Assembly (NCBI RefSeq): GCF_000271845.1 | Contig: NZ_JH719395.1 | Location: 2,573,624 to 2,637,623, forward strand | DNA: 64,000 nt | Source of the DNA: Rhizobium leguminosarum bv. trifolii WSM2297 | Lineage (GTDB): Bacteria > Pseudomonadota > Alphaproteobacteria > Rhizobiales > Rhizobiaceae | Direction of reading: 5' to 3' | Shown: positions 19,044 to 42,273 of the stretch, one piece after another | Layout: every line of letters starts with the position of its first letter | Position numbering within the stretch: position 1 is the stretch's first letter | Notes under the pieces: model-generated | The model's database searches: none | What the model was told of the DNA's origin: nothing | What the model saw: the letters and a program-made list of their open reading frames with translations, nothing else | Translations under genes and position numbers: made by a program

Positions 19044-19655
<612 letters not shown>

Positions 19656-19740
19656 GTTATTTACTCCAATCGAAGCCTGATGATAGCGACGCAGCCGGCG
19701 CGCGCCACCGTCAAATGACGCAGTTGCCATCGATAATTTG

Positions 19741-20412: not shown

Positions 20413-20417
20413 CGAGC

Positions 20418-21014: not shown

Positions 21015-21101
21015 GATGTGTCCGTTTTGCTGAGACGACGACCATGCAAAATAGCCCTTCCCGATGCAAGCACCAATAATCTTTCGCTGAAGGCCCGGTT
21101 T

Positions 21102-21950: not shown

Positions 21951-22280
21951 GAGAATCGACCTTCCTGCCCGGCGTTTCAACGCATTGATAGGAGCCCAAT
22001 TGCTGCGGGTGTCTTAATCGACTCGTTAAAATTCGAACGGTTTCCGACGATTCGATTGACAGATTTTTTCTAGCAGGAGATGCAGCATCCCAATCCCTGA
22101 ATCGGACAGCATGCTGAGACAATTAGGTCATTGATTTAAAACAGCTTTACCAGACTGCTCGGGAGGGGTGTTCCAGAATGGTCTAGCTGTAGAAAATGCC
22201 GGCTTTTCCACTGATTTTTACAACCGGATGGAGAGTGTCGTTCACAATTCAGTGCACGAGCGGGGCGGCCCACGGCTGGT
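21951..22280. other. Intergenic region between the DUF2459 and GGDEF genes
   Basis: 330 bp, lower in GC than its neighbours. It probably holds the GGDEF promoter on the minus strand. I see no gene and no clear hairpin terminator. It marks the only sizeable break inside the urease run. Confidence 0.5.
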
Positions 22281-22952
22281 TCAATTGTAGACACTCAGAG
22301 ACAATCGCAATGATTGTGGGAACGGGTTCCATAAGCCGGTTCGAAGCCCCGCCGTGCGGAGCGCAGCGGCCGTCCAGGTGTTGCAGCCGAAGAGGGCGTT
22401 GAAATATCCCCTGGCCTCGAAGAACCGGTCGATCTCGCCGTAGCCGGCATCCGGGATCGGCAGCACCACGCCCGCGTCGCGAACGAAGCTGTCCGAGATA
22501 AATTTGCGCAGCCGCGCCAATTGATCGTCGCCAATATCGAATGCCGCAACAGAGGGCTGCGGCTCGGTGATATGGCCGGCCAGATCCACATGCATCACCG
22601 AGCGGTCGATCGTCAGCGCCCGCAGCACCGGCAGCGGCTTCAGCTCCCCCCACGTAGGGGTTTCCAAATAAAAAGAACGTCCGCCCCAGCCGACGATGAG
22701 CCATTCCGCATTCGGATGGCCGAGCGGAAAATCAGGGCCTTCGAGGAAGGAAAAGGCCGCCCGCGTTTCCTCGTCGAGCGGAATGGCAATATCGGTATGG
22801 ATTGGTCCCGACAACAGCAGAATTCGATGCTTCGTTATTGCAGGCGACGCCTCGACCGGGGCAATCAGCGGCCGGGGAATGAAGGTTCCGCACGTCACCG
22901 AAAGCACAAGCAGAACGAGGACCCGCAAGAGCCAGCGGATACCTGTCCTCAT
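22281..22952 (-). CDS. DUF2459 (TIGR02117-type) urease-region protein
   Basis: 223 residues with an N-terminal membrane anchor or signal (IRWLLRVLVLLVLSVTCGTF) and a DUF2459 domain. Visible family traits are HTDIAIPLDEETR near 50, WLIVGWGGRSFYLETPTWGELKP near 85-105 (pieces: WLIVGWGGRSFYLET, PTWGELKP), SVMHVDLAGH, and FNALFGCNTWTAAALR near 190. The family is named for its frequent place in urease regions but has no known function. ATG 22952 is preferred to GTG 22961 because of GGTGG spacing. The gene follows ureC by 33 bp. A cell-envelope location is likely; enzymatic activity has not been inferred. Confidence 0.85.
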   Translation of the reverse strand: MRTGIRWLLRVLVLLVLSVTCGTFIPRPLIAPVEASPAITKHRILLLSGPIHTDIAIPLDEETRAAFSFLEGPDFPLGHPNAEWLIVGWGGRSFYLETPTWGELKPLPVLRALTIDRSVMHVDLAGHITEPQPSVAAFDIGDDQLARLRKFISDSFVRDAGVVLPIPDAGYGEIDRFFEARGYFNALFGCNTWTAAALRTAGLRTGLWNPFPQSLRLSLSVYN

Positions 22953-22985
22953 TGGAGCCACCAGTGACGCATGGGACGAACCGGC

Positions 22986-24698
22986 CTAAAACAGGAAATA
23001 GCGCTGCGCCATCGGCAGCACCGTCGCCGGCTCGCAGGTCAGCAATTCGCCGTTCGCCCTGACTTCATAGGTCTCCGGGTCGACCTCGATCTCGGGCGTC
23101 AGGTCGTTGTGGATCATCGATGCCTTGGAGATGCCGCCGCGCGTATTCTTCACCGCCACCAGTTCCTTGGCGACGCCGAGCCGGCCCTTCAGCCCGGCAT
23201 CGAGCGAAGCCTGGCTGACGAAAGTCACGGAGGAATTGGTGAGGCTCTTGCCGTAGGAGGCGAACATCGGCCGGTAGTGCACCGGCTGCGGCGTCGGGAT
23301 CGAGGCGTTCGGATCGCCCATCGGCGCGGCGGCGATCGAGCCGCCGAGCAGCACCATGTCGGGCTTCACGCCGAAGAAGGCCGGATTCCACAAGACGAGG
23401 TCGGCGCGTTTGCCGACTTCGACCGAGCCGATCTCACGGCTGAGGCCATGGGCAATCGCCGGATTGATCGTATATTTGGCGATATAGCGGCGGACGCGGA
23501 AATTGTCATTGTCACCCTTTTCCTCCTTCAGCCGGCCGCGCTGGCGCTTCATCTTGTCGGCCGTCTGCCAGGTGCGGATCGCCACCTCGCCGACCCGGCC
23601 CATGGCCTGGCTGTCGGAGGATATGATCGAGAAGGCGCCGATATCGTGGAGGATGTCTTCGGCGGCAATCGTCTCTTTGCGGATCCGGCTTTCGGCAAAA
23701 GCGATATCCTCGGGGATCGACGGCGACAGGTGATGGCAGACCATCAGCATGTCGAGATGCTCGGCAATGGTATTCACCGTATAGGGCCGCGTCGGATTGG
23801 TCGACGACGGAATGACGTTCGGCTGGCCGCAGATCTTGATAATATCCGGCGCGTGCCCGCCGCCCGCCCCTTCCGTATGGAAGGCATGGATGGTGCGGCC
23901 CTTGATGGCGCCGATCGTATCCTCGACAAAGCCGCTTTCGTTCAGCGTATCGGTGTGGATCATCACCTGCACGTCATATTCGTCGGCGACCGACAGGCAG
24001 CAGTCGATGGCGCCCGGCGTCGTGCCCCAATCCTCGTGCAGCTTCAGCGAGGTGGCGCCGGCGAGCACCATCTCGGTCAGCGCCCCCGGCAGCGAGGCAT
24101 TGCCCTTACCGGCAAAGGCGAGGTTCATCGGGAAGGCGTCGGCTGCCTCGATCATGCGCGCGAGATGCCAGGGACCGGGCGTGCAGGTGGTGGCAAGCGT
24201 GCCGTGCGCCGGTCCGGTGCCGCCGCCGAGCATGCAGGTCATGCCCGACATCAGCGCTTCCTCGATCTGCTGCGGCGCGATGAAGTGGATATGGCTGTCC
24301 ATGCCGCCGGCTGTGACGATCTTGCCTTCAGCGGCAATCGCCTCCGTGCCCGGGCCGACGATGATATTGACGCCCGGCTGCATATCGGGATTGCCCGCTT
24401 TGCCGATGGCGACGATACGCCCATCCTTGAGCCCGATATCGGCCTTGTAGATGCCGGAGTGATCGACGATCACGGCATTGGTGATGACGGTATCGACCGC
24501 ACCATCCGCCCGCGTCACCTGGCTCTGACCCATGCCATCACGGATCACCTTGCCGCCGCCGAATTTCACTTCCTCGCCATAGGTGGTGAAATCCTTCTCG
24601 ATCTCGATGAAGAGCTCCGTATCGGCAAGGCGCACCTTGTCGCCGGTGGTCGGTCCGAACATGCCGGCATAGGCGGCGCGAGAGATCTTATAGGGCAT
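22986..24698 (-). CDS. ureC: Urease alpha subunit, catalytic
   Basis: 570 residues, the standard size for UreC. The dinickel site is complete: His136 and His138 (SHIHF), Lys219 for carbamylation (GATSLKL), His248 (MIHTD), His274 (AFHTEG) and Asp362 (SSDSQ). The mobile flap has MVCHHLSPS with Cys321 and catalytic His322. Urease hydrolyses urea to ammonia and carbamate; the alpha subunit assembles with UreA and UreB as a trimer of trimers. The gene is separated from ureB by the LprI-like and GT29-like genes. ATG 24698 matches the family start. A large open frame on the opposite strand (22971-24728) is a composition shadow. Confidence 0.98.
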
Positions 24699-24701
24699 CC
24701 A

Positions 24702-25340
24702 TCAGGCTCCGTAGGAGGAAGAGACTAGCGTTTTTCCGCCGAGCCGCCTAAGGCGGCCGGCGGCAATATAGCTATCGACAAGCTGTCTTTCGGCTGCAAA
24801 CGGGTGCCATTCCCAGCCGGCGTGACCGAAGCCGGCAAGCGTCACCTCGGCCTCGGGATAGTTGTTCAGCACCTCGGCAATGACGATCATGCCACTGCTC
24901 GGCACAACATAAGGGGCCGGCGCAAAGGCCGAAAGCGAGGCATCGACCGCCTCGTGGATCGACTTGTCGATGACGACATGCGTCTTGCCGGCATTAGCGC
25001 AGAAGGCACTGAACGCGTCCGTGTAGTCGTCGCAGAAATCGTCCAATTCCGGATGCGAGACGGCAAGCGGCGCCCCCATCGCGGCAAATTTTTCCGGATC
25101 GCGCACGCTCCAGATTTCACCAGCCGAGACGACGCCAGGATGGGTCCGCCAATCTTGCGAACCGAGCATCGCCTTTGCCGGCCGGCCGGTATTGCAAACC
25201 GCAACCGCATGCGTACGACTGCCGCCGGCGCCATAGGAGCGGCAATCGTTGAAGCGGATGACGAAATCGGCCGCATCGATGATGCCTGCCTCTGCCTCCG
25301 CGATTTCACCATTGCCGACGATCACGATCTTTCTGATCAC
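24702..25340 (-). CDS. GT29 (sialyltransferase)-like protein in the urease operon
   Basis: 212 residues with no signal peptide. The N-terminus reads IVIVGNGEIAEAEAGIIDAADFVIRFN, in pieces IVIVGNGEIAEAEAG and IDAADFVIRFN, which resembles the L-motif of GT29 sialyltransferases (VGN-, ID-, DFV-R-N). A later PSSGMIVIAEVLNNYPEAEVTLAGFG (pieces: PSSGMIVIAEVL, EVTLAGFG) resembles the S-motif (PSTG, LYGF), followed by a histidine-containing HAGWEWHPFAAE. It starts at GTG 25340, 1 bp after the LprI-like stop, and ends 3 bp before ureC starts, so it is embedded in the urease operon. A Rossmann-like nucleotide-sugar or nucleotide-binding role is inferred; acceptor and donor are unknown, and a glycosyltransferase activity is unproven. 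Confidence 0.6.
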   Translation of the reverse strand: MIRKIVIVGNGEIAEAEAGIIDAADFVIRFNDCRSYGAGGSRTHAVAVCNTGRPAKAMLGSQDWRTHPGVVSAGEIWSVRDPEKFAAMGAPLAVSHPELDDFCDDYTDAFSAFCANAGKTHVVIDKSIHEAVDASLSAFAPAPYVVPSSGMIVIAEVLNNYPEAEVTLAGFGHAGWEWHPFAAERQLVDSYIAAGRLRRLGGKTLVSSSYGA

Positions 25341-25341
25341 C

Positions 25342-25749
25342 TTAGTTGCTCATCGTGTCTTCGAGCTCTTTCAGCTCTTTGGTGCGTTTGTCGGTGATGT
25401 TGGCGAGGCACCCGGCGACCAGCATCGGCTCCATCGTGCCGCCGCGGGCCTGGAAGCCGAAGGCGTCGCACTCGGCGTCGCGATAATCGATCCAGGCGCG
25501 TTGCGCCTTGACCAGCGCTTGCTCCGCGCCCTTCATGTCGCCATCCAGGTCCTTGTCGACCGCCGCAAGAGCCGCACGGGTCTTCTTGTATTGCGCATTC
25601 AAAGCCTTGTCGGCGGTATCGTGGCGCGCCGCCTCGCAAGAGGTCATATCCGCTTGCGTCTTGGGATTCTGGCAATCGATATCCTGAGCGCAGGCGCCAC
25701 CTGCCGTCATCAGCATGGCCGCCCCGATGAGGGAGATGTTCAAACGCAT
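25342..25749 (-). CDS. LprI/DUF1311-family periplasmic protein
   Basis: 135 residues. Signal peptide LNISLIGAAMLMTAGGACAQ with cleavage near residue 20, then a DUF1311 domain with four cysteines: CQNPKTQADMTSCEAA, and later CDAFGF and GCLANITDKRTKEL. LprI-type proteins are small secreted helical proteins, one of which inhibits lysozyme in Mycobacterium. Here the gene sits between ureB and the GT29-like gene with almost no spacing. Any link to urease is unexplained; an envelope-protective role is a guess from the family. Confidence 0.82.
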   Translation of the reverse strand: MRLNISLIGAAMLMTAGGACAQDIDCQNPKTQADMTSCEAARHDTADKALNAQYKKTRAALAAVDKDLDGDMKGAEQALVKAQRAWIDYRDAECDAFGFQARGGTMEPMLVAGCLANITDKRTKELKELEDTMSN

Positions 25750-25761
25750 GCATCTCTCCCG

Positions 25762-26067
25762 TTAAAGCTTGCCCATCACCAGCTGACGGAAGCCATAAAC
25801 CTCGCGCTTGCCGGAAAGCGGGATCAGCGTCACTGAGCGCGTCTGTCCGGGCTCGAAGCGTACGGCCGTTCCAGCCGGAATATCGAGCCGCTTGCCATGC
25901 GCCGCTGCGCGGTCGAAGGAAAGCCCGGCATTGGTCTCGGCGAAATGATAGTGGCTGCCGACCTGCACCGGCCGGTCGCCGGTATTGGAAACTTCCAGCG
26001 TCACCGTCGGCGCGCCGGCATTCAGTTCGATGTCGCCGCTCGCGGCAATGATTTCGCCCGGAATCAT
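25762..26067 (-). CDS. ureB: Urease beta subunit
   Basis: 101 residues, the size expected for a separate UreB. Family traits include [17 protein letters not shown] at the N-terminus, [21 protein letters not shown], and [16 protein letters not shown] near the C-terminus. It forms the urease core with UreA and UreC and stabilises the active-site flap. The start ATG 26067 follows DUF1272 by 10 bp. Confidence 0.97.
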
Positions 26068-26077
26068 CTTGTTCTCC

Positions 26078-26329
26078 TTAAGCCGCCTTGGGCGCGCAGC
26101 CCTCTGCCTTCAGCACACGTTTCGTCGATGCCGGATTTTTGGCGAGCATATCAGCCGGCCGGACGGGTCTCGCGACGAGATTGCCGCCGCAGTTCGGGCA
26201 GACACCCTTCAACACGCCGTCGACGCAATCGGCGCAGAAAGTGCATTCATAGGTACAGATCCGCGCCTCGGCGCTATCCGGCGGCAAATCCCGGTCGCAG
26301 CATTCGCAATTGGGCCTGAGCTCGAGCAT
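26078..26329 (-). CDS. DUF1272 cysteine-rich small protein
   Basis: 83 residues starting [16 protein letters not shown]. Eight or more cysteines are arranged as paired CxxC motifs ([21 protein letters not shown]), a zinc-ribbon-like pattern typical of DUF1272. The family is widespread but of unknown role. It lies between ureA and ureB with 10-bp gaps on each side, so it is co-transcribed with urease. Metal binding is likely; whether nickel is involved is untested. A longer frame to 26380 overlaps the ureA end and is not used. Confidence 0.85.
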
Positions 26330-26339
26330 TCCTGTCTCC

Positions 26340-26642
26340 TCACCGGATCGGTTCGTGCACGGTGACGAGCTTGGTTCCATCGGGGAACGTCGCCTCCACC
26401 TGCACGTCGTGGATCATCTCGGCAATGCCTTCCATCACCTGATCGCGGCCGATCACATGGGCGCCGGCCTCCATCAGCTCGGCAACCGGGCGGCCGTCGC
26501 GGGCGCCTTCGACGACGAAATCGCTGATGAGCGCGATCGCTTCGGGATAGTTCAGCTTGACGCCGCGCTCCAGCCGCCGCCGCGCCACCATCGCCGCCAT
26601 GGATATCAGAAGCTTGTCTTTTTCTCTCGGAGTGAGGTTCAT
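26340..26642 (-). CDS. ureA: Urease gamma subunit
   Basis: 100 residues, standard UreA length, beginning [20 protein letters not shown] and containing [26 protein letters not shown] (pieces: [26 protein letters not shown]) and [22 protein letters not shown] near the end (pieces: [22 protein letters not shown]). Two adjacent ATGs occur; the second (26642) matches the family. It follows ureD by 20 bp. Confidence 0.97.
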
Positions 26643-26662
26643 CATCTACCTGCTTATTGAAC

Positions 26663-27635: not shown

Positions 27636-28331
27636 TCAGACAGTCAGATGGCGGCGGGCCTCCGGCGTATCCAGGGTTTCGGCAAGGCCCTCATGCACGA
27701 TCTCGCCACGATCCATGATGTAGACGTAGTCGGCAAGCTCGCGGCAGAAATCCAGATATTGTTCGACGAGCAGGATCGCCATGCCGGTGGAATCGCGCAG
27801 ATACCGGATCGCCCGGCCGATATCCTTGATGATCGACGGCTGAATACCCTCGGTCGGCTCGTCGAGCACGAGAATCCTGGGGCGCGTCACCATGGCGCGC
27901 CCGATCGCCAGCTGCTGTTGCTGCCCGCCGGAAAGATCGCCGCCGCGGCGCGACAGCATCGACTTCAGCACCGGGAAGAGACTGAAGATGTCGTCGGGTA
28001 TGTTGCGGTCTCGGCGGCCAAGCGGGGCAAAGCCGGTTTCGAGATTTTCCTTGACCGTCAGCAGCGGGAAAATTTCGCGCCCCTGCGGCACATAGCCGAT
28101 GCCCTGCTTGGCGCGAGCAAAGGGCGGCAGGCCATTCAGCCTGGTATCGTTGAAGGTGACGGTGCCGGCCGACAGCGGATGCTGGCCGGTCACGGCACGC
28201 AGAAGCGAACTCTTGCCGACGCCATTGCGCCCCAGCACGCAGGTGATCTTGCCCATCTCGGCTTTGATCGAGATGCCGCGCAGCGCCTGGGCGGCGCCAT
28301 AATGCAGATTTGCGTTTTCGACTGTCAGCAT
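27636..28331 (-). CDS. urtE: Urea ABC transporter ATP-binding protein UrtE
   Basis: 231 residues, LivF-like ATPase. Walker [10 protein letters not shown], signature [14 protein letters not shown] and Walker [14 protein letters not shown] are clear; the EGIQP ending is characteristic of UrtE. It energises urea uptake with UrtD, through UrtB and UrtC. The ATG at 28331 is preceded by GGTGAACGG; ATG 28343, four codons earlier, is an alternative. It is separated from urtD by the TerB-like gene. Confidence 0.94.
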
Positions 28332-28349
28332 CCGTTCACCCATTCCCCA

Positions 28350-28944: not shown

Positions 28945-29709
28945 TCACCGTCCGAGATAGTTCTCGATCACCTTGGGATCGGAACTGACAAAGTCGATCG
29001 AACCTTCCGCCAGCACCGAGCCCTCCGCAAGGCATGTGACCTTGACTCCGAGGTCGCGGATGAAGCCCATGTCGTGCTCGACGACGACAACCGACCGGGT
29101 CCTGGCGATATCCTTGAGCAGGATCGCCGTTTCCGCCGTCTCCGCATCCGTCATGCCGGCCACCGGTTCGTCGACGAGCAGAAGTTTTGGCTCCTGCGCC
29201 AGGAGCATACCGATCTCCAGCCACTGCTTCTGCCCGTGCGAGAGGTTGGCGGCGAATTCGTCGCGGCGGTGCGTCAGCCGCACTGTATCGAGGATTTCCT
29301 CGATACGGGTCTTGTCCTCGCCCGAAAGCCGATAGAACAGCGTCGAAAACACGCCGCGGCGGCGGCTCAGCGCCAGCTCCAGATTGTCCCAGACCGTATG
29401 GCTTTCGAAGACCGTGGGCTTCTGGAATTTGCGGCCGATGCCGAGCTGGGCAATGTCGGCCTCGTCCTTCTTGGTGAGGTCAACCGTGCCGTTGAAGAAC
29501 ACCTCGCCCTCATCGGGCCTGGTCTTGCCGGTGATGATATCCATCATCGTCGTCTTGCCGGCGCCGTTCGGGCCGATGATGGCGCGAAGCTCGCCGGGCT
29601 CGATGACGATCGACAGCGAATTCAGCGCCTTGAAGCCGTCGAAGGAAACCGAGACGCCGTTGAGATAAAGCACGCTGGTGGGTTTGACGTCGGGAATCAT
29701 CGTGTTCAC
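28945..29709 (-). CDS. urtD: Urea ABC transporter ATP-binding protein UrtD
   Basis: 254 residues, LivG-like ATPase with Walker A GPNGAGKTT, a signature reading LSHGQKQWLEIGM (the usual LSGGQ is LSHGQ, normal for UrtD) and Walker B LLLVDEPVAGMTD. Typical UrtD features are GRKFQKPTVFESHTVWDNLE and VVVVEHDMGFIRDLG. GTG 29709 overlaps the urtC stop (GTGA), indicating translational coupling; an ATG three codons later (29700) is an alternative. A 61-bp gap follows before the TerB-like gene. Confidence 0.95.
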   Translation of the reverse strand: MNTMIPDVKPTSVLYLNGVSVSFDGFKALNSLSIVIEPGELRAIIGPNGAGKTTMMDIITGKTRPDEGEVFFNGTVDLTKKDEADIAQLGIGRKFQKPTVFESHTVWDNLELALSRRRGVFSTLFYRLSGEDKTRIEEILDTVRLTHRRDEFAANLSHGQKQWLEIGMLLAQEPKLLLVDEPVAGMTDAETAETAILLKDIARTRSVVVVEHDMGFIRDLGVKVTCLAEGSVLAEGSIDFVSSDPKVIENYLGR

Positions 29710-30869
29710 TCCGCTGCCTGGATTTTCGGCTCGATATCGTCTCCCAGCACGGCCGGCGGGGCAGCCTTGGAGACGGCCTTCCGCTTGCCGAGATATTGGG
29801 CGACCGTGCCGACGACGCCCTTCGGCAGGAACAGCGTGACGGCGACGAAGAGGCCGCCAAGCGCAAACAGCCAGAACTCAGGGAAGAGGCCGGTGAAAAC
29901 AGTCTTGCCGCCGTTGACGAGGATCGCACCGATGATCGGCCCGATCAGCGTCGCGCGCCCGCCGACCGCCGTCCAGATGACGACTTCGATTGAGTTGGCA
30001 GGGGCGAATTCGCCGGGATTGATGATGCCGACCTGCGGCACATAAAGCGCCCCGGCAATTCCCGCCATCATCGCCGAGACGACGAAGGTGAAAAGTTTGA
30101 AATGCTCAACGCGGTAACCGAGGAAGCGCGTGCGGCTTTCGGCATCACGTACACCGACCAGCACCTTGCCGAACTTCGAGCGCACGATCGCCGAGGCAAG
30201 CAGCAGCGACAGCGCCAGCAAGATCGCGGTTGCCGCAAAGAGGGCTGCACGCGTGCCGTCGGCCTGGACGTTGAAGCCGATAATGTCCTTGAAATCGGTA
30301 AGGCCGTTATTACCGCCAAAACCCATGTCGTTGCGGAAGAAGGCGAGCAGCAGCGCGTAGGTCATCGCCTGGGTAATGATCGAGAGATAGACACCGTTGA
30401 CGCGTGAGCGGAAGGCGAACCAGCCGAAAACGAAGGCAAGCAGCCCGGGCACGACGAGAACCATCAGCGCCGCAAACCAGAAGTGGTTGAAGCCGTACCA
30501 GAACCAGGGCAGATCCTTCCAGTTCAGGAACACCATGAAGTCAGGCAGGATTGGGTCGCCATAGCTGCCGCGGGTGCCGATCTGGCGCATCAGATACATG
30601 CCCATCGCATAACCGCCGAGCGCGAAGAAGGCGCCGTGGCCGAGCGAGAGGATGCCGCAGAAGCCCCAGACGAGATCGAGCGCAAGCGCCAATAGCGCAT
30701 AGGTCAGATATTTGCCAAACAGCGACATGATGTAAGTCGGGATATGCAGCGGGTTGGTCGGCCCCGTCATCAGGTTCAGAACCGGCACAAGAACGGCGAC
30801 CAGAAGCAAGAGGGCGATTGCAATGACGATCTTGCGATCGAGAGACCGGAGAAGGAAGGCCGTAATCAT
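29706..30869 (-). CDS. urtC: Urea ABC transporter permease UrtC
   Basis: 387 residues, LivM-like inner-membrane permease with about ten hydrophobic segments. Family traits include WGFCGILSLGHGAFFALGGYAMGMYLMR (pieces: WGFCGILSLGHGAFFALGG, YAMGMYLMR) near residue 70-95, the GNNGLTDF segment near 190 and GGRATLIGPIIGAILVN near 310. UrtB and UrtC form the membrane channel. ATG 30869 overlaps the urtB stop (ATGA). Confidence 0.95.
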   Translation of the reverse strand: MITAFLLRSLDRKIVIAIALLLLVAVLVPVLNLMTGPTNPLHIPTYIMSLFGKYLTYALLALALDLVWGFCGILSLGHGAFFALGGYAMGMYLMRQIGTRGSYGDPILPDFMVFLNWKDLPWFWYGFNHFWFAALMVLVVPGLLAFVFGWFAFRSRVNGVYLSIITQAMTYALLLAFFRNDMGFGGNNGLTDFKDIIGFNVQADGTRAALFAATAILLALSLLLASAIVRSKFGKVLVGVRDAESRTRFLGYRVEHFKLFTFVVSAMMAGIAGALYVPQVGIINPGEFAPANSIEVVIWTAVGGRATLIGPIIGAILVNGGKTVFTGLFPEFWLFALGGLFVAVTLFLPKGVVGTVAQYLGKRKAVSKAAPPAVLGDDIEPKIQAAE

Positions 30870-32503
30870 GCTTCCACTGCCCTTCCTTTGAGTGCGAAGA
30901 GCCCGCGGGGGCGCTTCTGGATGAAGAGAATGATGAGGACGAGCACCAGGATCTTGCCAAGCACGGCGCCGGCGAAGGGCTCGAGGAACTTGTTGACGAC
31001 ACCGAGCGACAAAGCACCGACCAGCGTGCCCCAGAGATTGCCGACACCGCCGAACACCACGACCATGAAGCTGTCGATGATGTAGTTCTGACCGAGGTTC
31101 GGCGAGACGTTGTCAATCTGGCTGAGCGCCACGCCGGCAATGCCGGCAATGCCGGAACCGAGCGCGAAGGTGAAGGCATCGACCCAGCCGGTGCGGATAC
31201 CCATCGAGGAGGCCATGCGCCGGTTCTGCGTGACGGCGCGCATCTGCAGACCGAAGGCGGAGCGTTTCAAAAGCATGAGCAGCGTCAGAAACACGACCAT
31301 GGAGAAGACGATGATCCAGAGCCGGTTCCAGGTGATGGCGAGACCGCCGAGATCGAAGACGCCGGACATCCAGCTCGGATTGCGCACTTCGCGGTTGGTC
31401 GGGCCGAAATAGCTGCGGATTGCCTGCTGCAGGATCAGCGATACGCCCCAGGTGGCGAGCAGGGTTTCCAGCGGCCGGCCATAGAGATAGCGGATGACGG
31501 CGCGTTCGATGACCAGACCGACGAAACCGGTAAAGACGAAGGCGGCCGGCACCGCGAAGGCCAGCGAATAATCAGCGAGCGAGGGAAAGGCCGAGGTGAT
31601 GTACTCCTGCACGACATATGTCGTATAGGCTCCGATCATCACCATTTCGCCATGCGCCATGTTGATGACGCCCATGACGCCGAAGGTGATGGCAAGGCCG
31701 ATCGCCGCAAGCAGCAGCACCGAGCCGAGGGACAGGCCGTACCAGACGTTCTGGGCGACGTCCCACAGCGCCAGGCTGCGATTGATGGAACTGATATCGG
31801 CCTGGATCGCCGGCTTCAAATCCTCGGGCGCGGTTTCGAGTGTCGTCGTCAGAATGGTCAGCGCATCGCGATTGCCGCGAGCCGCGATCGTATCGATTGC
31901 AGCCTTCTTGTCTTCGACGCTCGCATCCGTCTTCAAGAGCAGCACGGCTCGCGCCGCTTCCATCGTATTCTTGATCTCCGCATCCTTTTCGGCCGCAAGT
32001 GCCGAATTCAGCAGCTCGAGATTGGCGGGATCGGCGTCTTTCAGCAGCCCCTGCGCCGCGGCGAGCCGCGCGGAACGGTCCGGGCTCATCAGCGTCAACT
32101 GGCTGTTGGCGGCGCTGATGACGCCGCGAAGCGCGTTGTTGATCTTGACCTTGGTCATCAGATCCGGATCGACATCGGCAGCCGCTTCGCCGGTGATCGG
32201 ATCGGAATAGGTCGGTTCGTCATCGGTACCGCCCTGGAGGAGAACCGGACCGCCATCGGAGTTGACGTAGAGAAGGCCGCCGCTCAGCTGCTGCAGGATC
32301 TGGCTGACATGCGGGTCTTTGGAGGCGACCAGCGCCTTGATGGCCGCTTCGCGTTCCGGGAAATCGCCGACGCCGAGCGCATCGATAAGGACATGGATAT
32401 CGTCCTCGGCCCGAACTTCGCCCGACAATGACAGACTTGAAATTGTTAGGCCAGAAAATGCCAGGCAGAGCGTGATCAGGAAAATCTTTATGGCGCGACA
32501 CAT
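30866..32503 (-). CDS. urtB: Urea ABC transporter permease UrtB with long periplasmic N-terminus
   Basis: 545 residues. A signal peptide (IFLITLCLAFSGLTISSLSLS) precedes about 210 residues of helical repeat-like sequence (ALGVGDFPEREAAIKALVASKDPHV, split as ALGVGDFPEREAAIKAL and VASKDPHV; RSARLAAAQGLLKDADPANLE, split as RSARLAAAQGLL and KDADPANLE), resembling HEAT-type repeats, and then a LivH-like permease domain (about 255-540) with GVMGVINMAHGEMVMIGAY. The N-terminal extension is a known trait of proteobacterial UrtB. Possible role: docking of the UrtA binding protein. ATG 32503. Confidence 0.95.
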   Translation of the reverse strand: MCRAIKIFLITLCLAFSGLTISSLSLSGEVRAEDDIHVLIDALGVGDFPEREAAIKALVASKDPHVSQILQQLSGGLLYVNSDGGPVLLQGGTDDEPTYSDPITGEAAADVDPDLMTKVKINNALRGVISAANSQLTLMSPDRSARLAAAQGLLKDADPANLELLNSALAAEKDAEIKNTMEAARAVLLLKTDASVEDKKAAIDTIAARGNRDALTILTTTLETAPEDLKPAIQADISSINRSLALWDVAQNVWYGLSLGSVLLLAAIGLAITFGVMGVINMAHGEMVMIGAYTTYVVQEYITSAFPSLADYSLAFAVPAAFVFTGFVGLVIERAVIRYLYGRPLETLLATWGVSLILQQAIRSYFGPTNREVRNPSWMSGVFDLGGLAITWNRLWIIVFSMVVFLTLLMLLKRSAFGLQMRAVTQNRRMASSMGIRTGWVDAFTFALGSGIAGIAGVALSQIDNVSPNLGQNYIIDSFMVVVFGGVGNLWGTLVGALSLGVVNKFLEPFAGAVLGKILVLVLIILFIQKRPRGLFALKGRAVEA

Positions 32504-32617: not shown

Positions 32618-33910
32618 TCAGGAACCCTTGCCGCCGCACTTGCCGGTTGCAACGTTGAAGTTGCCGCAAGACATGGGCTTGCGCCAATCGGAGATCAGAT
32701 CCTTGGAGTCCGGCAGGTAATCCGACCATTCGTCGCCGACGACGGCGGGCGTCTGCTGGACGATTTCGAACTGGCCATTGGCCTGGATTTCACCGATCAG
32801 CACCGGCTTGGTGATGTGGTGGTTCGGCATGACAGTCGCATAACCGCCGGAGAGGTTCGGAACGCTGACGCCGATGATCGAGTCGAGAACCTTGTCGGTA
32901 TCGGTCGTGCCGGCAGCCTGGACGGCCTTAACCCATGCGTTGAAGCCGATATAGGCAGCTTCCATCGGGTCGTTGGTTACACGCTTGTCGTTCTTGGTGT
33001 AGGCATGCCAGTCCTTGATGAACTTCTTGTTGGCCGGGCTTTCGACAGATTCGAAGTAGTTCCAGGCAGCGAGATGGCCAACGAGCGGCTTGGTATCGAG
33101 ACCGGCAAGTTCTTCTTCGCCGACCGAGAAGGCGACGACGGGGATGTCGGTTGCCTTGATGCCCTTGTTGCCCAGTTCCTTGTAGAACGGAACGTTGGCA
33201 TCTCCGTTGATCGTCGAGACGACGGCGGTCTTCTTGCCGGCCGAACCGAATTCCTTGATCTTGGAAACTTCGGTCTGCCAGTCGGAGAAGCCGAACGGCG
33301 TGTAGTTGGTCATGATGTCTTCTTTCGGAATACCCTTCGAAATCAGGTATGCCTCGAGAATCTTGTTGGTCGTGCGCGGATAGACATAGTCGGTACCTTC
33401 GAGCACGAAGCGCTTGACGCCTTCTTTTTCCATCAGATAGTCGACGGCCGGAATTGCCTGCTGGTTCGGAGCCGCCCCGGTGTAGAAGATGTTGCGCGAG
33501 GATTCTTCGCCTTCATACTGCACGGGATAGAAGAGCAGCGAATTCAGCTCTTCGAATACCGGCAGGACGGATTTGCGCGAGGACGAGGTCCAGCAGCCGA
33601 ATACGGCGGCGACCTTGTCCTTTTCGATCAGCTCGCGTGCCTTTTCGGCAAACAGCGGCCAGTCGGAAGCCGGATCGACGACGACGGCCTCAAGCTTCTT
33701 GCCGAGAAGGCCGCCCTTCTTGTTCTGCTCGTCGATGAGCATCAGCATGGCGTCTTTCAGCGTGGTTTCTGAAATCGCCATCGTGCCGGAGAGCGAATGC
33801 AATACGCCGACTTTGATCGTGTCGTCGGCGGCCACCGCGCCCTGAAAGGCGGCCGATGCCGCCATGACGGCGCCGAGCGCAGCGCCGGTGATCGTGGATC
33901 TGAAATTCAT
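32618..33910 (-). CDS. urtA: Urea-binding periplasmic protein UrtA
   Basis: 430 residues. Signal peptide MNFRSTITGAALGAVMAASA with cleavage near GAVAAD (about 28). The mature part has the type I binding-protein fold of the Urt family: IKVGVLHSLSGTMAISETTLKD (pieces: IKVGVLHSLSGTMAI, SETTLKD), FGCWTSSSRKSVLPVFEE, LLFYPVQYEGEESS, and FSVGEEELAGLDT. It captures urea or short amides and hands them to UrtBC. Start at 33910 chosen from the signal peptide; a longer frame to 34057 lacks it. The urt operon promoter must lie in 33911-34043, but I cannot define NtrC or sigma-54 sites in it. Confidence 0.95.
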   Translation of the reverse strand: MNFRSTITGAALGAVMAASAAFQGAVAADDTIKVGVLHSLSGTMAISETTLKDAMLMLIDEQNKKGGLLGKKLEAVVVDPASDWPLFAEKARELIEKDKVAAVFGCWTSSSRKSVLPVFEELNSLLFYPVQYEGEESSRNIFYTGAAPNQQAIPAVDYLMEKEGVKRFVLEGTDYVYPRTTNKILEAYLISKGIPKEDIMTNYTPFGFSDWQTEVSKIKEFGSAGKKTAVVSTINGDANVPFYKELGNKGIKATDIPVVAFSVGEEELAGLDTKPLVGHLAAWNYFESVESPANKKFIKDWHAYTKNDKRVTNDPMEAAYIGFNAWVKAVQAAGTTDTDKVLDSIIGVSVPNLSGGYATVMPNHHITKPVLIGEIQANGQFEIVQQTPAVVGDEWSDYLPDSKDLISDWRKPMSCGNFNVATGKCGGKGS

Positions 33911-34043
33911 CTGTTTGAGCCCCTCTTCTTGTTCCGCAACAGGCCGGAAACGGAATTTAACTGTTGCCGAGGGGACTATCGGGTGCTGCAACGCAAAAAC
34001 ACATACGCAAAATGACGTAGGCGCAGGGGCAAACGGACCGGGG

Positions 34044-34098: not shown

Positions 34099-36000
34099 TT
34101 AGCCGTCGATCGTCAAAGTGACCGCCGTCGGACCGTAGGAGAGGCTGGCCTTGTGGCCGGAAACGGTGACCTTGCCGAAGGTGCCGGAAAGGGCGCCAGC
34201 CTTCAGGATCTCGATCTTCGTTCCGGGCGCCGGGGCATAGCCATCGGCAAGCGTCACTTCGAGATCGCCGGCCAACGCCGCCTCGCCTCCGACGGACAGC
34301 GTGCCTGCACCGTTCGCGCCGATTGTCAGCTTCGCCGCGGCCTTGGCGGACTGCTGATAATCGCCGCCCACGGTCAGAGGTTTGTTGGCCGCCACAACCA
34401 GCGAACCGCCATTGATCGTTAGCCCGCCGGTGCCGAAGGCGGAGGGCGAGCCGGCCACCAGCGCGCCCTCGTCCAGCGCGGTGCCGCCGGCATAGCTGTT
34501 GGCGCCGGAAAGCCCGAGAATGCCGCTGCCGCCCTTCACGAGCCTGCCCTTGCCGCCGATGTCGTTGCGCCAACTATCGATCGCATTGAAGCCGCCCTTT
34601 GCCGCATCCATCGTCACGGTCACATCCTGATCGAAGGCACCGTAGCCGTCGGCGGCGGCAAACAGGTTGAGACGGCCGTAACCCGCATCGTCAATGAGCG
34701 GATAGCCAGAGGCGATCTCTGTCGTCTTCAACACCTCGCGGCGCTGCGCGCCGTCGAGATAGGGCAGACGCGTTTCGAGAAGCGCTTCGGCGCCCTGCGG
34801 CACGCGAGCCGGCTGGTCGGTCGCATGGATCGTCGGCAGGCCGTAGCTCAGGCGCTGCAGTACGTAAGCGCGATTGGCGTCATGATCGGCAAAGCGGTCC
34901 GCCGCGATCGGCGCCGCATGCGCAGCGACTTCGAGCGCACTCGCATCGGCAACGGCGGATTTGGCGATGAGCCATGACTGCGCCTGGGCGTAAGCATTGC
35001 TCTTCAGCGCTGAGTTGTCGGCCTTGTTCAGATTATAGACCACCGTCGCGGTGCCGAGCATGCGGCCGCCCATTACGTCGAGAGGAGAATGCATGCCGGA
35101 AAGAATACGGTCTTCGCCCAGTTCGCTGGCGCGCGTGATCATTTCCTGAAAGCGCTGCGGCACGAGGTAGGCCATGGCAAGTGCATCCCGCCAGGCTTCC
35201 GCCGTATGACCGCTCGGGAAGCCACCATCCTCGACCGGCTTGCCGCTCTTGGCAGGCTCCAGGGTCGGAACAACCGACACATCCTGGCTCCAGCGGTACG
35301 GACGGCCATATTTAAAATAACGCTTGGCTGGCTCCGTCGAGCCGTCACCGCTTGCAGCGTTGATGAAGTCGATTGCAAGACCCATGTCCGGGTTTGCTTC
35401 GGTCTTGTTTTCCGTGTCCGGCTTGCTGCCGGCGCCGCGATTGTTGCCCTTGTCGTCATATTTGACCGTCGTCGCATCGGCCGCCACCTCGGTGATCGTG
35501 GTGGTCTGTTTGGAGCCGGCCTTCCAGGTAGGCGTCAACGGACCGAGGCCGTCGACGATGCTGGCATTCTTGCCGCGCCGATCGTCGAGATAGGCGGCCA
35601 CGGCCTGATCGGCGGTCCGCGCCCGCGTCGCGTTGACGACATAGGCGATGTTTGCATCGTGGACGGCCTGGTTGACGATATGGCCGTCGGTTTTGCTGGA
35701 AGGAATGCCGTCCCAATCCGTCTTGGCGACCGCCGGGCAATTGTCCTTGGCCGGGGCTTCGACGCCCGCATCGACGAAGGGCGTTCGCGGAGTCCAGACT
35801 TCGAGGAAGCCGGAAAGAAGATGAACGGCGGCGTTGGTGTCCACCGTCGAGAAGCAGGCGTCACCGCGCTTATTGGTGTTTCCGGTCTCGACATAAGGCG
35901 CCTTCGCCACTGTCACCTGCTCGGCGCCGGCAAGCGAAGGCACGATCGAAACAAGGCAGACGAGGGCGGTGCTCAGGCGGAAAAGGCTTGAAACAGACAT
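34099..36000 (-). CDS. Secreted PAP2-type acid phosphatase with autotransporter-associated repeat
   Basis: 633 residues. Signal peptide MSVSSLFRLSTALVCLVSIV with cleavage near SLAGA (about 26). The central PAP2 (acid phosphatase/haloperoxidase) motifs are complete: K226-x6-R233-P (KRYFKYGRP), PSGH at 262-265 and R298-x5-H304-x3-D308. A C-terminal region (about 490-633) contains an autotransporter-associated beta-strand repeat (KGGSGILGLSGANSYAGGTALDEGALV, split as KGGSGILGLSGANS and YAGGTALDEGALV), but the roughly 270-residue beta-barrel translocator is absent: the protein stops after SYGPTAVTLTIDG. It may be secreted into the periplasm or rely on another route. The start at 36000 is chosen from the signal peptide. 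Upstream of urtA, but not obviously part of that operon. Confidence 0.87.
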   Translation of the reverse strand: MSVSSLFRLSTALVCLVSIVPSLAGAEQVTVAKAPYVETGNTNKRGDACFSTVDTNAAVHLLSGFLEVWTPRTPFVDAGVEAPAKDNCPAVAKTDWDGIPSSKTDGHIVNQAVHDANIAYVVNATRARTADQAVAAYLDDRRGKNASIVDGLGPLTPTWKAGSKQTTTITEVAADATTVKYDDKGNNRGAGSKPDTENKTEANPDMGLAIDFINAASGDGSTEPAKRYFKYGRPYRWSQDVSVVPTLEPAKSGKPVEDGGFPSGHTAEAWRDALAMAYLVPQRFQEMITRASELGEDRILSGMHSPLDVMGGRMLGTATVVYNLNKADNSALKSNAYAQAQSWLIAKSAVADASALEVAAHAAPIAADRFADHDANRAYVLQRLSYGLPTIHATDQPARVPQGAEALLETRLPYLDGAQRREVLKTTEIASGYPLIDDAGYGRLNLFAAADGYGAFDQDVTVTMDAAKGGFNAIDSWRNDIGGKGRLVKGGSGILGLSGANSYAGGTALDEGALVAGSPSAFGTGGLTINGGSLVVAANKPLTVGGDYQQSAKAAAKLTIGANGAGTLSVGGEAALAGDLEVTLADGYAPAPGTKIEILKAGALSGTFGKVTVSGHKASLSYGPTAVTLTIDG

Positions 36001-36178
36001 GGGTGATACCTGAAATGATTGAACGAACGGCGGGAGAGTTAGAGGGCTTGTGTGACAGACCGGCTTCAAAAATATGGCGGTTCCGTGAATCTGCCAGTGC
36101 TCCGCCCTTGCCTTTCTCGCCCATCCCGCCAAAACTGTTTCGAGACGATGAGGCCAACCGGAATGCCGGAAGGAAGAC

Positions 36179-39100
36179 ATGGCAGCGCGCCAACGCATCA
36201 TTCCGGTGAGACGCGAATATAATCGCTGGGTCGCCAACCAGACGCTGGAAGATTATGCGTTGCGCTTCACCGCAAAGAGCGCCCGCCACTTCTCCTCCCA
36301 GCGCATCTCGCAGACGGCGATCGGCGCGATCTCCTTCCTGGCGCTTGAGGCGATCGGCGGCGCGATCACCCTCTCCTACGGCACCACCAACGCCTTCTAT
36401 GCCATTATAGTCGCCTCGATCGCCATGCTGGCGATCGGCCTGCCGATCAGCCGCTACGCCATCCGCCACGGCGTCGACATCGACCTTCTGACGCGCGGCG
36501 CCGGCTTCGGCTATATAGGCTCGACCATCACCTCGCTGATCTATGCGAGCTTCACCTTCATGCTGTTTGCGATCGAGGCCTCGATCATGTCCGGGGCGCT
36601 CGAGCTCACCCTCGGCATCCCGCTGTGGATCGGCTACATTCTCAGCGCCGTCATGGTGATCCCGCTGGTGACGCATGGCGTGCGGCTGATCAGCAAGTTC
36701 CAGCTGTTGACCCAGCCCTTCTGGATCGTGCTGAATATCCTGCCCTTCATATTCATCGCCTGTTTGGACTGGGAAAAATTCGATCTCTGGCGCGCCTTTG
36801 CCGGCATCCGCCATGCTTCCGGCCCGCCCGGCACCATCGCCGATTTCGATCTGGTAGAGTTCGGCGCCGCCTCTGCCGTGATCCTGGCGCTGATGTCGCA
36901 GATCGGCGAACAGGCCGACTTCCTGCGTTTCCTGCCGCCGGAGCCGCGGCGCAAGTGGCGCCATCGCCTCGCTGTCTTCCTCGCGGGACCCGGCTGGGTC
37001 GTCATCGGCGCGCCGAAGCTGCTTGCTGGTTCCTTTCTCGTCGTGCTGACCTTCACCTCTGGCGTGCCGGTGGATCGCGCCGCCGATCCGGCGCAGATGT
37101 ATCTGACCGCTTTCGGCTACATGGTCCCTTGGCACGATGCGGCGCTGCTGTTGATGGCTGCTTTCGTCGTCGTTTCGCAGCTGAAGATCAACGTGATGAA
37201 TGCCTATGCCGGCTCGCTCGCCTGGTCGAACTTTTTCTCGCGACTGACCCACAGCCATCCCGGCCGCGTCATCTGGCTGGTCTTCAACGTCGCGATCGCC
37301 CTACTTTTGATGGAGCTCGGCATCTACCGGCTGCTGGAGGAGACGCTCGGCATCTTCTCGATCATCGCCATGGCCTGGCTCTGCACGATCTCCGCCGATC
37401 TCTTCATCAACAAGCCGCTGGGGCTCGCTCCGCCCGGCATCGAGTTCAAGCGCGCACATCTCTACGACATCAACCCGGTCGGTCTCGGGGCCATGACGCT
37501 GTCGGCGACCGTCTCGCTGATTGCTCATTTCGGCGCCTTCGGCGAGATCGCCGCCTCGCTCGCCCCTTATATCACCCTGGTCATCGCCCTGGTCGCCTCG
37601 CCTGTCATCGCCTGGGCGACAAAAGGCAAATTCTATCTCGCCCGCAAGCCGCGCCACAGCTGGAAGAACCTGACGGACATCACTTGCTCGGTCTGTGAAC
37701 ACCCGTTCGAGCCGGAGGATATGGCCTGGTGCCCGGCCTATGCTGCGCCGATCTGCTCGCTCTGCTGTTCGCTCGACAGCCGTTGCCACGACATGTGCAA
37801 GCCGGCCGCCAGCTTCAATGCGCAGGTCGGCACCGTCGCCAAGGTGCTGCTGCCTGACGCCATTCTGGGGAAGCTGACGACGCGCCTTGGCCGCTATGGC
37901 ATCGCCGTCGTGCTGGCCTTGACCGCCATCGGCGCGATCCTGGCGATGATCGCCCATCAGGTCGCCGCCGCCTCGCCCGAGACAGCCGAGGTCGTCAACC
38001 GCACCATTCTCATCGTCTTCTTCGTCTTCTCGGTGATTTCAGGCGTTGTCTGCTGGTTCTATGTGCTCGCCCATGACAGCCGCGTCGTGGCCGAGGAGGA
38101 ATCGTCGCGCCAGAACACCCTGCTGCTGAAAGAGATCGCCGCCCACAAGAAGACCGACACCGCCTTGCAGAACGCCAAGGAGACGGCCGAGGCAGCCAAT
38201 CGCGCCAAGAGCCGCTATGTCGTCGGTCTCAGCCACGAACTGCGCACGCCACTCAACGCCGTGCTCGGTTATGCCCAGATCCTTGAGCGCGACGAGACCA
38301 TCCCGCCGCCGCGCCAATCCTCGATCAAGGTCATCCGCCGCAGCGCCGAACACCTCTCGGGGCTGATCGACGGCCTGCTCGATATTTCCAAGATCGAGGC
38401 CGGCCGCCTGCAGGTCTATTCCAACGAGATCAACATCCAGGATTTCCTTGACCAGATCGTCGATATGTTCCGCCCGCAGGCGCAGGCGAAGGGGCTGGCC
38501 TTCATCCATCAGCGCTCGCCGGCCTTGCCGCAATTCGTCCGCACCGACGAAAAGCGGCTGCGCCAGATCCTCGTCAACCTACTCTCCAATGCCATCAAAT
38601 TCACCGACGAAGGCAGCGTCACCTTCGACGTCGGCTATCGTAGCCAGGTCGCGACCTTCACCATTGCCGATACCGGCCGCGGCATCACGGAGAAAGACCT
38701 GCCCCGGATCTATGAACCTTTCCAGCGCGGCGAGGCGGAAAGCGTGAGGCCAATGCCGGGCCTCGGTCTTGGCCTGACCATCACCCGGCTTCTGACAAAC
38801 ACGCTCGGCGGCGAGATTTTGGTTTCGAGCGTCAAGGACGAGGGCTCGACCTTCCGCGTCCGTCTCATGCTGTCGGCCGTCATGCGCGCCGTGGCTGCCG
38901 CACCGCAGGAGAAACGCATCGTCGGTTACGATGACCCGCGCCGCACCATCGTTGTCGTCGACGATAACGAAGACCATCGCGAGATGATGCGCGAAATCCT
39001 GGCGCCGCTCGATTTCATCGTGCTGACGGCGGCAGGTGGCGCCGAATGCCTGACGCTGATCGAGGGAATTATACCGGACCTCTTCCTTGTCGATATCCTG

Positions 39101-39565
39101 ATGCCCGGCATGAACGGCTGGCAACTCGTCTCGCGCCTACGCGAAGCCGGGCAGACGGCGCCGGTGCTGATGCTTTCGGCCAATATCGGTGATGCAGCGG
39201 TTCTCGGCGACAGTGACGACAGCCACAATGACGCGATCGGTAAGCCGGTCGACATCCGCCAGCTCCGCGACAAGCTCGCTTTGCATCTCGGCCTGAATTG
39301 GATCTATGCCGACGCAGTAGCAGCCGTTCCTGTCAAGACCGAAGCGCCGATGCTGAGCCCAGGTGCCGCCCATGTGCAGGAATTGCTGCGGCTCGGCGAG
39401 ATCGGTTATATCAGAGGCATCGAAGCCAAGCTTTCCGACCTTGCCAAGGTGGAGGCAAATAAGCCATTCACCGAGAAACTCTATACCTATGTCGCCGCCT
39501 TCGATCTTGCCGGCTTCATGACCTTCCTGCACGACTTCGACGAAAAGGTGGAATCCATTGGCTGA
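36179..39565 (+). CDS. Hybrid histidine kinase with NCS1 permease-like sensor and cysteine cluster
   Basis: 1128 residues. Residues about 14-490 resemble NCS1 nucleobase/allantoin permeases: EYNRWVANQTLEDYALRFT at the start and about twelve hydrophobic helices. Residues 503-540 hold eight cysteines (503, 506, 518, 526, 529, 530, 536, 540) in CxxC and CxxCC arrangement, a probable metal or Fe-S site. Two more membrane helices (about 570-640) and a short coiled coil lead to HisKA with phosphoacceptor His686 (LSHELRTPLN), the HATPase with NLLSNAIKF, DTGRGI and GLGLGLTI, and a receiver (about 920-1040) with Asp972. A 90-residue helical tail follows. Start ATG 36179 follows AGGAAG. It diverges from the phosphatase/urt side and is coupled to the next gene. 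The ligand is inferred to be a nucleobase or ureide compound; unproven. Confidence 0.9.
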   Translation: MAARQRIIPVRREYNRWVANQTLEDYALRFTAKSARHFSSQRISQTAIGAISFLALEAIGGAITLSYGTTNAFYAIIVASIAMLAIGLPISRYAIRHGVDIDLLTRGAGFGYIGSTITSLIYASFTFMLFAIEASIMSGALELTLGIPLWIGYILSAVMVIPLVTHGVRLISKFQLLTQPFWIVLNILPFIFIACLDWEKFDLWRAFAGIRHASGPPGTIADFDLVEFGAASAVILALMSQIGEQADFLRFLPPEPRRKWRHRLAVFLAGPGWVVIGAPKLLAGSFLVVLTFTSGVPVDRAADPAQMYLTAFGYMVPWHDAALLLMAAFVVVSQLKINVMNAYAGSLAWSNFFSRLTHSHPGRVIWLVFNVAIALLLMELGIYRLLEETLGIFSIIAMAWLCTISADLFINKPLGLAPPGIEFKRAHLYDINPVGLGAMTLSATVSLIAHFGAFGEIAASLAPYITLVIALVASPVIAWATKGKFYLARKPRHSWKNLTDITCSVCEHPFEPEDMAWCPAYAAPICSLCCSLDSRCHDMCKPAASFNAQVGTVAKVLLPDAILGKLTTRLGRYGIAVVLALTAIGAILAMIAHQVAAASPETAEVVNRTILIVFFVFSVISGVVCWFYVLAHDSRVVAEEESSRQNTLLLKEIAAHKKTDTALQNAKETAEAANRAKSRYVVGLSHELRTPLNAVLGYAQILERDETIPPPRQSSIKVIRRSAEHLSGLIDGLLDISKIEAGRLQVYSNEINIQDFLDQIVDMFRPQAQAKGLAFIHQRSPALPQFVRTDEKRLRQILVNLLSNAIKFTDEGSVTFDVGYRSQVATFTIADTGRGITEKDLPRIYEPFQRGEAESVRPMPGLGLGLTITRLLTNTLGGEILVSSVKDEGSTFRVRLMLSAVMRAVAAAPQEKRIVGYDDPRRTIVVVDDNEDHREMMREILAPLDFIVLTAAGGAECLTLIEGIIPDLFLVDILMPGMNGWQLVSRLREAGQTAPVLMLSANIGDAAVLGDSDDSHNDAIGKPVDIRQLRDKLALHLGLNWIYADAVAAVPVKTEAPMLSPGAAHVQELLRLGEIGYIRGIEAKLSDLAKVEANKPFTEKLYTYVAAFDLAGFMTFLHDFDEKVESIG

Positions 39566-40475
39566 GTCGGCCCTCCCCCGTGACATCGTTCTGCTCGTCG
39601 ACGATTCGCCCGAAGCGCTCGGCTTCCTCACAGACGCGCTCGAACAATCCGGCTTTTCCGTGCTGATCGCGACATCGGGCACGGCGGCGCTTGGTATCGT
39701 CGAGCGCATCACACCTGATCTGATCCTGCTCGACGCCGTCATGCCCGCCATGGATGGCTTCGAAACCTGCCGCAGACTGAAGGCCAATGCCGCGGTGGCA
39801 CAGGTGCCTGTCATCTTCATGACCGGCCTGACCGAGACCGAGCATGTCGTGCACGCGCTGGAATCCGGCGGCGTCGATTATCTCGCCAAGCCGATCAATA
39901 TCGACGAATTGCGCGCCCGCATCCGCGTCCATCTGCGCAATGCCCGCTCGGCGCAAAGCGCCCGCGTCGCGCTCGACGCTGCCGGCCGCCATCTACTGGC
40001 GGTCAAGGGCGATGGCGCCATCCACTGGTCGACGCCGCAAGCAACGCGGCTGGTCAATGCCGCCATGGGCAGCGACGACGGCATGGAAATCGTCGTCCGC
40101 CATATCGCCGGCTGGATGCGCGAGCGCGCAGCCGCAGTGCGCGACGGCATCATTTCGATCGCTCATGCCGGCCAGGCGGCGCTGCGGCTCGCTTTTCTCG
40201 GCGCGATCGGCCCGGACGAATATCTCTTTCGCCTCACCGCCGCCAATCAGCGCAGCGACGACGAGATGCTGCGCCAGCGCTTCTCGCTTACCCAGCGCGA
40301 ATCCGAAGTGTTGCTCTGGATCTCCAAGGGCAAGGCCAACCGCGACATCGGCGAAATACTGGGACTGTCGGCGCGCACCGTGAACAAGCACCTGGAACAG
40401 ATCTACGTCAAGCTCGGCGTCGAGAACCGGGCGTCAGCCGCGGTAAAGGCGACGCATGTGCTGCACGAGATGTGA
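39558..40475 (+). CDS. LuxR-type response regulator coupled to the NCS1-type kinase
   Basis: 305 residues: receiver domain (10-130) with acidic pair DD at 15-16, Asp59 (LILLDAVMP) and the Lys in YLAKP, then a linker of about 100 residues and a LuxR/GerE helix-turn-helix (about 235-300: LTQRESEVLLWISKGKANRDIGE and LGLSARTVNKHLEQIYVKLG). The start is TTG 39558, overlapping the kinase stop by 8 bp; no ATG is available upstream of the receiver. The coupling and shared strand say it is the partner of the kinase. Its targets may be the urt/ure or bra genes on either side, by proximity only. Confidence 0.9.
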   Translation: MAESALPRDIVLLVDDSPEALGFLTDALEQSGFSVLIATSGTAALGIVERITPDLILLDAVMPAMDGFETCRRLKANAAVAQVPVIFMTGLTETEHVVHALESGGVDYLAKPINIDELRARIRVHLRNARSAQSARVALDAAGRHLLAVKGDGAIHWSTPQATRLVNAAMGSDDGMEIVVRHIAGWMRERAAAVRDGIISIAHAGQAALRLAFLGAIGPDEYLFRLTAANQRSDDEMLRQRFSLTQRESEVLLWISKGKANRDIGEILGLSARTVNKHLEQIYVKLGVENRASAAVKATHVLHEM

Positions 40476-42254: not shown

Positions 42255-42273
42255 GTCAAACTCTCCCTTCGAG

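Follow-up and report, generated by a model that had tools for sequence, protein, structure and literature searches.

The gene at 36179-39565 (forward strand) of the window, by which we mean the whole 64-kb stretch of DNA analysed, encodes a 1128-residue protein that we read, with a probability of about two in three, as a transporter-derived receptor kinase. Its NCS1-type permease would sense urea and signal via a hybrid histidine kinase and a LuxR-type response regulator to a palindrome upstream of urtA. This reading was built on the observed domains, homology, synteny and conservation, and on a sequence motif and its association with the kinase.

The sensor kinase and its partner regulator

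Along the chain, an NCS1-type permease domain (residues 1-490, 36179..37648, +), the proposed urea receptor, is followed by an eight-cysteine segment (residues 503-540, 37685..37798, +), two extra membrane helices (approximately residues 569-634, 37883..38080, +) and a hybrid histidine kinase. In the Pfam scan all features of such a kinase were present: HisKA (residues 677-742, 38207..38404, +; PF00512, E 1.6e-16) with His686, HATPase_c (residues 789-898, 38543..38872, +; PF02518, E 4.2e-24) and a receiver (residues 924-1033, 38948..39277, +; PF00072, E 7.6e-19) with Asp972. The same scan gave no match above cut-off N-terminal of residue 677. The fused hybrid kinase described in the initial annotation, made from the sequence alone, was thus confirmed from residue 677 onwards. 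The two helices that it had placed between cysteines and kinase were also recovered, by model and hydropathy, and run into a long helix at residues 600-659 of the predicted structure.

The regulator gene (39558..40475, +) overlaps the kinase gene by 8 bp, and its product, with a receiver and a GerE DNA-binding domain (Pfam Response_reg and GerE), is a LuxR/NarL-type response regulator. Pfam and the ORF coordinates therefore agree with the overlapping LuxR-type partner reported before. The overlap is annotated likewise in S. meliloti, Paraburkholderia and Methylovirgula, and not in Mitsuaria.

Direct Pfam and PDB sequence searches with the permease domain gave nothing useful, and homology was reached via a relative and a model. 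A Klebsiella permease with 41% identity over residues 20-533 served as intermediate; it scores 37.7 bits against PF02133 (cut-off 23.5). The predicted model has a LeuT-type fold, with CodB and Mhp1, both NCS1, as nearest solved structures. Among the matches listed in this structure comparison the two outscore SLC5 chains, and the Pfam scan, read up to an E of 1, contained no SSF (SLC5) hit. The NCS1 permease claimed at the outset consequently stands through the intermediate relative and the model fold, the direct profile scan of the window protein being negative. In the permease core, Glu133, Gln241, Glu244, Gln245, Asn338 and Asn341 are polar and invariant (58/58 aligned rows). The stretch QIGEQ at residues 241-245 is nearly invariant in the family and absent from the more distant NCS1 permeases L148, L158 and L149 (numbers with L denote loci, those with G genomes); it may represent an insertion at the TM6 break that is peculiar to this family.

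The cysteine-rich tail

The initial annotation had made its proposal depend on conservation of the eight cysteines, and these were found unchanged in 31 of 31 aligned rows. It had also seen in them a special element of the signal path, which did not hold up, as the same segment is present in permeases without a kinase. Among the best 120 relatives of one kinase-less permease, 119 carry the segment at most 24 residues from their end; in the case of a second one, 119/120 relatives carry a form with 4-5 cysteines. Because it is found near the ends of kinase-less permeases, the segment is, judged by sequence comparison, the permease family's own C-terminal tail. Weak fold matches were obtained with PHD, FYVE, ZZ and RING two-zinc fingers, none of the solved structures reaching E < 0.001. 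The tail is modelled as probably a two-zinc finger inherited from the standalone permeases. A B-box was also considered from the spacing of the cysteines and rejected; such chains are found among the weak fold matches without standing out.

A different role would follow if the cysteines bound an Fe-S cluster or a regulatory metal and tuned the kinase as a redox- or metal-gated sensor. Their invariance speaks for this, as does the retention of a shortened cysteine remnant in the permease-less L151. However, the module is a part of the permease that also occurs where there is no kinase, the weak fold matches are two-zinc fingers, and redox or metal genes were no recurring neighbour in the gene tables examined, urease accessory genes excepted, so that we consider such a sensor decidedly improbable.

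The L151 protein (4857-6713, +), 618 residues long, is a hybrid kinase that belongs to this family, and its cysteine-rich remnant is short. The regulator of this locus, encoded nearby on the opposite strand, is 46% identical to that of the window.

Gene neighbourhood and ligand

In the window, the genes of the urea ABC transporter lie on the reverse strand: UrtA, the binding protein (32618..33910; TIGR03407, E 1.2e-167; start re-set from the ORF start at 34057), UrtB (30866..32503; TIGR03409, E 1.4e-130), UrtC (29706..30869; TIGR03408, E 1.4e-135), UrtD (28945..29709; TIGR03411, E 2e-115) and UrtE (27636..28343; tblastn, 84% identity to S. meliloti UrtE). The urease genes occupy a stretch with approximate ends on the same strand (19044..26650; tblastn, 59-73% identity to Mitsuaria urease proteins), with UreG at ~19047, UreC at 22986-24698, UreB at ~25765 and UreA at ~26346. 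Between urtA and the kinase lies a PAP2/acid-phosphatase-like gene (34099..36006, -; Pfam PAP2 and PATR), which is probably unrelated and whose protein bears an autotransporter-type repeat. In many relatives, e.g. L060, the gap between urtA and the kinase is just a few hundred bp. On the 3' side of the regulator there is a branched-chain amino acid type ABC transporter cluster (40659-46229, -), the binding protein of which scores far under the urea-type cut-off (NCBIfam).

We surveyed 112 loci, many of them closely related (45 were left at an 85% identity cut, L111 of these being left out; L013 was excluded from the 112 as a duplicate of L034). Loci were called urea-type if a UrtA at least 60% identical to that of the window, or urease genes, lay within 13 kb, and amide-type if formamidase or aliphatic amidase genes did so. 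Thus, 70 loci were urea-type and 38 amide-type, with 4 in neither class. Both kinds of genes together were found in 0/112 loci, urea-type loci being without formamidase or amidase and amide-type loci without urease. A homologue of the regulator follows the kinase in 110/112 loci, the exceptions being L146 and L147, and a urtA-like gene is present in 104/112, divergent and upstream in 102 of these. On a 51-row tree, the fewest-change count of switches between the two types was 4. Rhizobium johnstonii 3841 has the same system (L110).

Nine annotated loci of standalone, that is kinase-less, relatives were considered, after setting aside L144, which has no annotation, and L055, where a remnant of the permease lies near ureC. 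In seven of the nine the relative adjoins genes for urease, formamidase or amidase. The permease stands beside urease in K. pneumoniae, Acinetobacter ursingii and A. lwoffii, beside formamidase in Moraxella osloensis and Tsukamurella, and beside amidase in Arthrobacter sp. U41 and Methylovirgula; the loci without such genes are those of Streptomyces angustmyceticus and Arthrobacter sp. NicSoilB11.

The survey with its 70 urea-type loci bears out the link to urea genes noted at first in the window, and gene neighbourhood is what supports the suggested nitrogen-sensing role. Allantoin, uracil and hydantoin, which had been considered as ligands as well, are less likely than urea because the genes around the kinase in the 112 loci concern urea or short-chain amides. 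Judged from these gene contexts, urea is the probable ligand of the window kinase. A nucleobase, allantoin or hydantoin, as in the case of classical NCS1 permeases, would be suggested by the NCS1 fold and by database names of relatives, which include allantoin permease and cytosine permease. We give this option very little credence in view of the urea or amide neighbours and of the base-stacking W108 of CodB, whose position holds Phe in the family and Leu in the window's clade. Only the TM3 mapping was used for this comparison, since the CodB substrate residues mapped onto TM6 and TM8 differ between two alignments; at the F204 partner site the TM6 alignment is ambiguous.

Permease positions changing in parallel were sought in four urea-type lineages compared with the amide-type, and pocket residues do not split the types in parallel. 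The sole filtered column with the same majority residue in all four urea-type lineages is 482, a variable column. F129L and T340M mark the urea clade of the window in 15/15 rows, as one event only. As the pocket residues fail to separate urea-type from amide-type, the ligand assignment rests on gene neighbourhood.

It could also be supposed that the kinase does not bind urea and reads UrtABCDE activity or nitrogen status, the permease domain being an anchor or partner. Some histidine kinases do read ABC transporters, and an ABC importer is paired with the kinase in 102/112 loci. Nevertheless, the invariance of the polar core residues listed above argues against it, as do L056 and L153, where the kinase adjoins ureABC and the stretch examined showed no urtA-like gene. 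Altogether we find this supposition unlikely.

A candidate operator upstream of urtA

A palindrome-restricted motif search in 31 non-redundant urtA-kinase intervals yielded TACGTCA-NN-TGACGTA, with a log-likelihood of 266 compared to 23 and 28 in two letter shuffles (60 starts for the real data and 25 per shuffle, the shuffles preserving single-letter composition only). These intervals came from the 45 loci after dropping six with long intervals, the window included, and eight without a measured urtA distance. Whole loci were then scored with the 14-position consensus, counting as success at least half of the tied best sites inside the urtA-kinase interval. This was the case in 85/102 loci, with 7.0/102 expected by length, and in 61/71 loci held out of motif discovery; L048 and L142, where urtA is not divergent, were left out of the scoring.

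Split by type, the motif was present in 65 of 66 urea-type loci with divergent urtA (L049 is the single one without it) and in 20 of the 36 others, namely 35 amide-type loci and L120. The consensus is weak or variant in the remaining 16/36, many Bradyrhizobium among them, in many of which the palindrome takes the variant form TACGCAAGATCGCGTA. No good motif site was found in L056 or L153, two loci with the kinase facing ureA, and L146 and L147, with their NtrB-type kinases, have neither the LuxR-type regulator nor the motif. Across the urea-type loci, 136-171 bp separate the site from the aligned UrtA start, while the kinase is anywhere from 76 bp to 7.7 kb away. With a narrow range of distances to UrtA and a wide one to the kinase, the site is an element of the urtA promoter. 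In the window, the predicted operator TACGCAAAATGACGTA (34004..34019, about 94 bp before the UrtA ATG at 33910) is the single best consensus match of the 64 kb; taken alone this site is not beyond chance, an equal match having been seen in 15/100 shuffles.

As a control, the 30 best urtA loci of a sample of 299 Pseudomonadota genomes were compared. Where a kinase lies within 7 kb, 5/5 loci score 12-13 of 14, at least two of these five genomes being also in the 102-locus set; 0/25 urtA promoters without a kinase nearby exceed 10 of 14 within 900 bp. The labels for kinase nearby or absent were set by hand, and 12 of the 25 come from genomes with a kinase elsewhere. In seven whole genomes, seven sites with at most one mismatch were detected, six in the kinase/urt cluster and the seventh in G001, two genomes having none. 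Such genome-wide sites include one upstream of fmdA in G175 and one upstream of a separate amiE in G247, and, named by locus, sites lie before fmdA in L034 and L136 and before a separate amiE in L205. Two-mismatch sites, genome-wide no commoner than the reversed pattern, were dropped. Overall, this distribution makes the palindrome a likely operator of the co-encoded regulator.

Proposed mechanism

In the proposed mechanism, urea or an amide would occupy the NCS1 domain, a member of a subfamily associated with urea and short-chain amides. A conformational change would then reach the long helix by way of the cytoplasmic cysteine tail and the two-helix hairpin, after which phosphate would move from His686 to Asp972 and on to the LuxR-type regulator. 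The latter would bind TACGTCA-NN-TGACGTA upstream of urtA and switch on urtABCDE, and probably urea use too. In amide-type relatives, the same system would control a Urt-like ABC operon together with fmdA and amiE. We take the tail, which follows twelve helices, to be cytoplasmic, as for NCS1. The domain order, this side of the tail and the operator position are consistent with the route; its functional steps, that is ligand binding, zinc binding, signalling direction, phosphotransfer and binding of the motif by the regulator, are what we infer.

We know of no histidine kinase that binds urea, important as this compound is as a source of nitrogen, and urt operons as a rule come under general nitrogen control. 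If the mechanism is true, it would provide a specific receptor for urea (and amides) together with its operator and some of the regulon, open to test in a standard Rhizobium strain. It would also mean that a second family of transporters has undergone conversion to a receptor, and here relatives lacking the kinase are extant for comparison. In addition, the mechanism predicts urea as the substrate of those standalone NCS1 permeases of Klebsiella and Acinetobacter that are encoded next to urease.

Comparison with known systems

UhpC is a receptor descended from the same transporter family as UhpT, which serves the same nutrients. The likeness, shared with similar receptors of this origin, lies in a transporter-derived receptor, and Methylovirgula has kinase, regulator and standalone paralogue side by side; UhpC is however a separate protein, whereas receptor and kinase form one chain here.

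The SLC5-STAC histidine kinases CbrA, CrbS/MxtR and RpuS are described as an SLC5 transporter fused to a kinase via STAC, with histidine, acetate and pyruvate as substrates (PMC13022988, PMC5715377, PMC9100948). Like these, the window protein joins a whole LeuT-fold transporter to a histidine kinase, and CrbS and RpuS likewise come with a response regulator and a promoter repeat governing genes for substrate uptake or use. Instead of SLC5 and STAC, it has NCS1, the eight-cysteine module and the two-helix hairpin, and its ligand is probably urea or amides rather than the substrates just named. Since the Pfam scan found no SLC5 domain, it lies outside the SLC5-STAC class. The TAC start of the palindrome resembles sites given for CrbR, also LuxR-type (PMC5715377). 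CodB (PMC9379551) and Mhp1 share the fold of the permease domain; they are, in contrast, nucleobase and hydantoin transporters without a kinase, and the present domain lacks the Trp that stacks the base in CodB.

In Ectopseudomonas guguanensis G3, a hybrid kinase and a LuxR-family regulator adjoin a second urtABCDE operon, similar to the arrangement by urt seen here; a permease domain, cysteine tail or operator is not mentioned in the available text of this account (PMC13296017). A literature search, with most subscription journals outside its reach, retrieved no recognisable NCS1-kinase fusion, no urea sensing by one and no such palindrome. Two of the papers retrieved contain both terms, NCS1 and histidine kinase, and name NCS1 only in a thesis title and as separate transporters in a table (PMC8399564, PMC6296734).

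We rate the protein as a new variant within the class of transporter-kinases (CbrA, CrbS, RpuS), built on another transporter family. A broader view, which we hold at slightly short of even odds, is that of a second transporter-kinase class independent of SLC5-STAC, in which a hitherto unrecognised NCS1 branch for urea and short amides, with a cytoplasmic zinc-finger-like cysteine tail, would have been fused to a kinase once. What had been a regulatory or gating tail of the transporter would have become the coupling element of the receptor, and one code, TACGTCA-NN-TGACGTA, would serve urea or amide uptake in many Pseudomonadota.

Distribution and origin

Among the matches listed, the closest database relative shows 97% identity over residues 1-660, and kinases of this kind occur in at least 38 of 299 Pseudomonadota genomes, a count that takes in G198, with only an NtrB-like form, and G225, where the kinase is cut by the contig end. 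In a quick tree of 89 permease domains, hybrid kinases, NtrB-type kinases, eight-cysteine standalones and 4-5-cysteine standalones formed one group each, the hybrid and NtrB-type kinases joining with a support of 84. In a more careful 44-row tree without outgroup (20/41 hybrid kinases, 2/2 NtrB-type, 12/27 and 10/17 standalones), a branch with 100/98 support separated all kinase-bearing permeases from the standalones. These groupings fit one fusion with a later swap of the kinase in L146 and L147, where the count of changes alone cannot separate gain from loss. In these two loci (L146: 5499-8156, -), the permease, eight cysteines and two helices are fused to an NtrB-like kinase without receiver, beside formamidase.

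In PLSDB, the sensor part was matched by 538 of 72,556 plasmid records, in 509 of them over at least 80% of its length. Klebsiella accounts for 342 of the 538, and some of the matches are kinase-less permeases. A single one of the 342, on a plasmid of Klebsiella variicola (L053), was typed and is an amide-type copy. The sensor, regulator and standalone paralogue of Methylovirgula are likewise located on a plasmid (L142).
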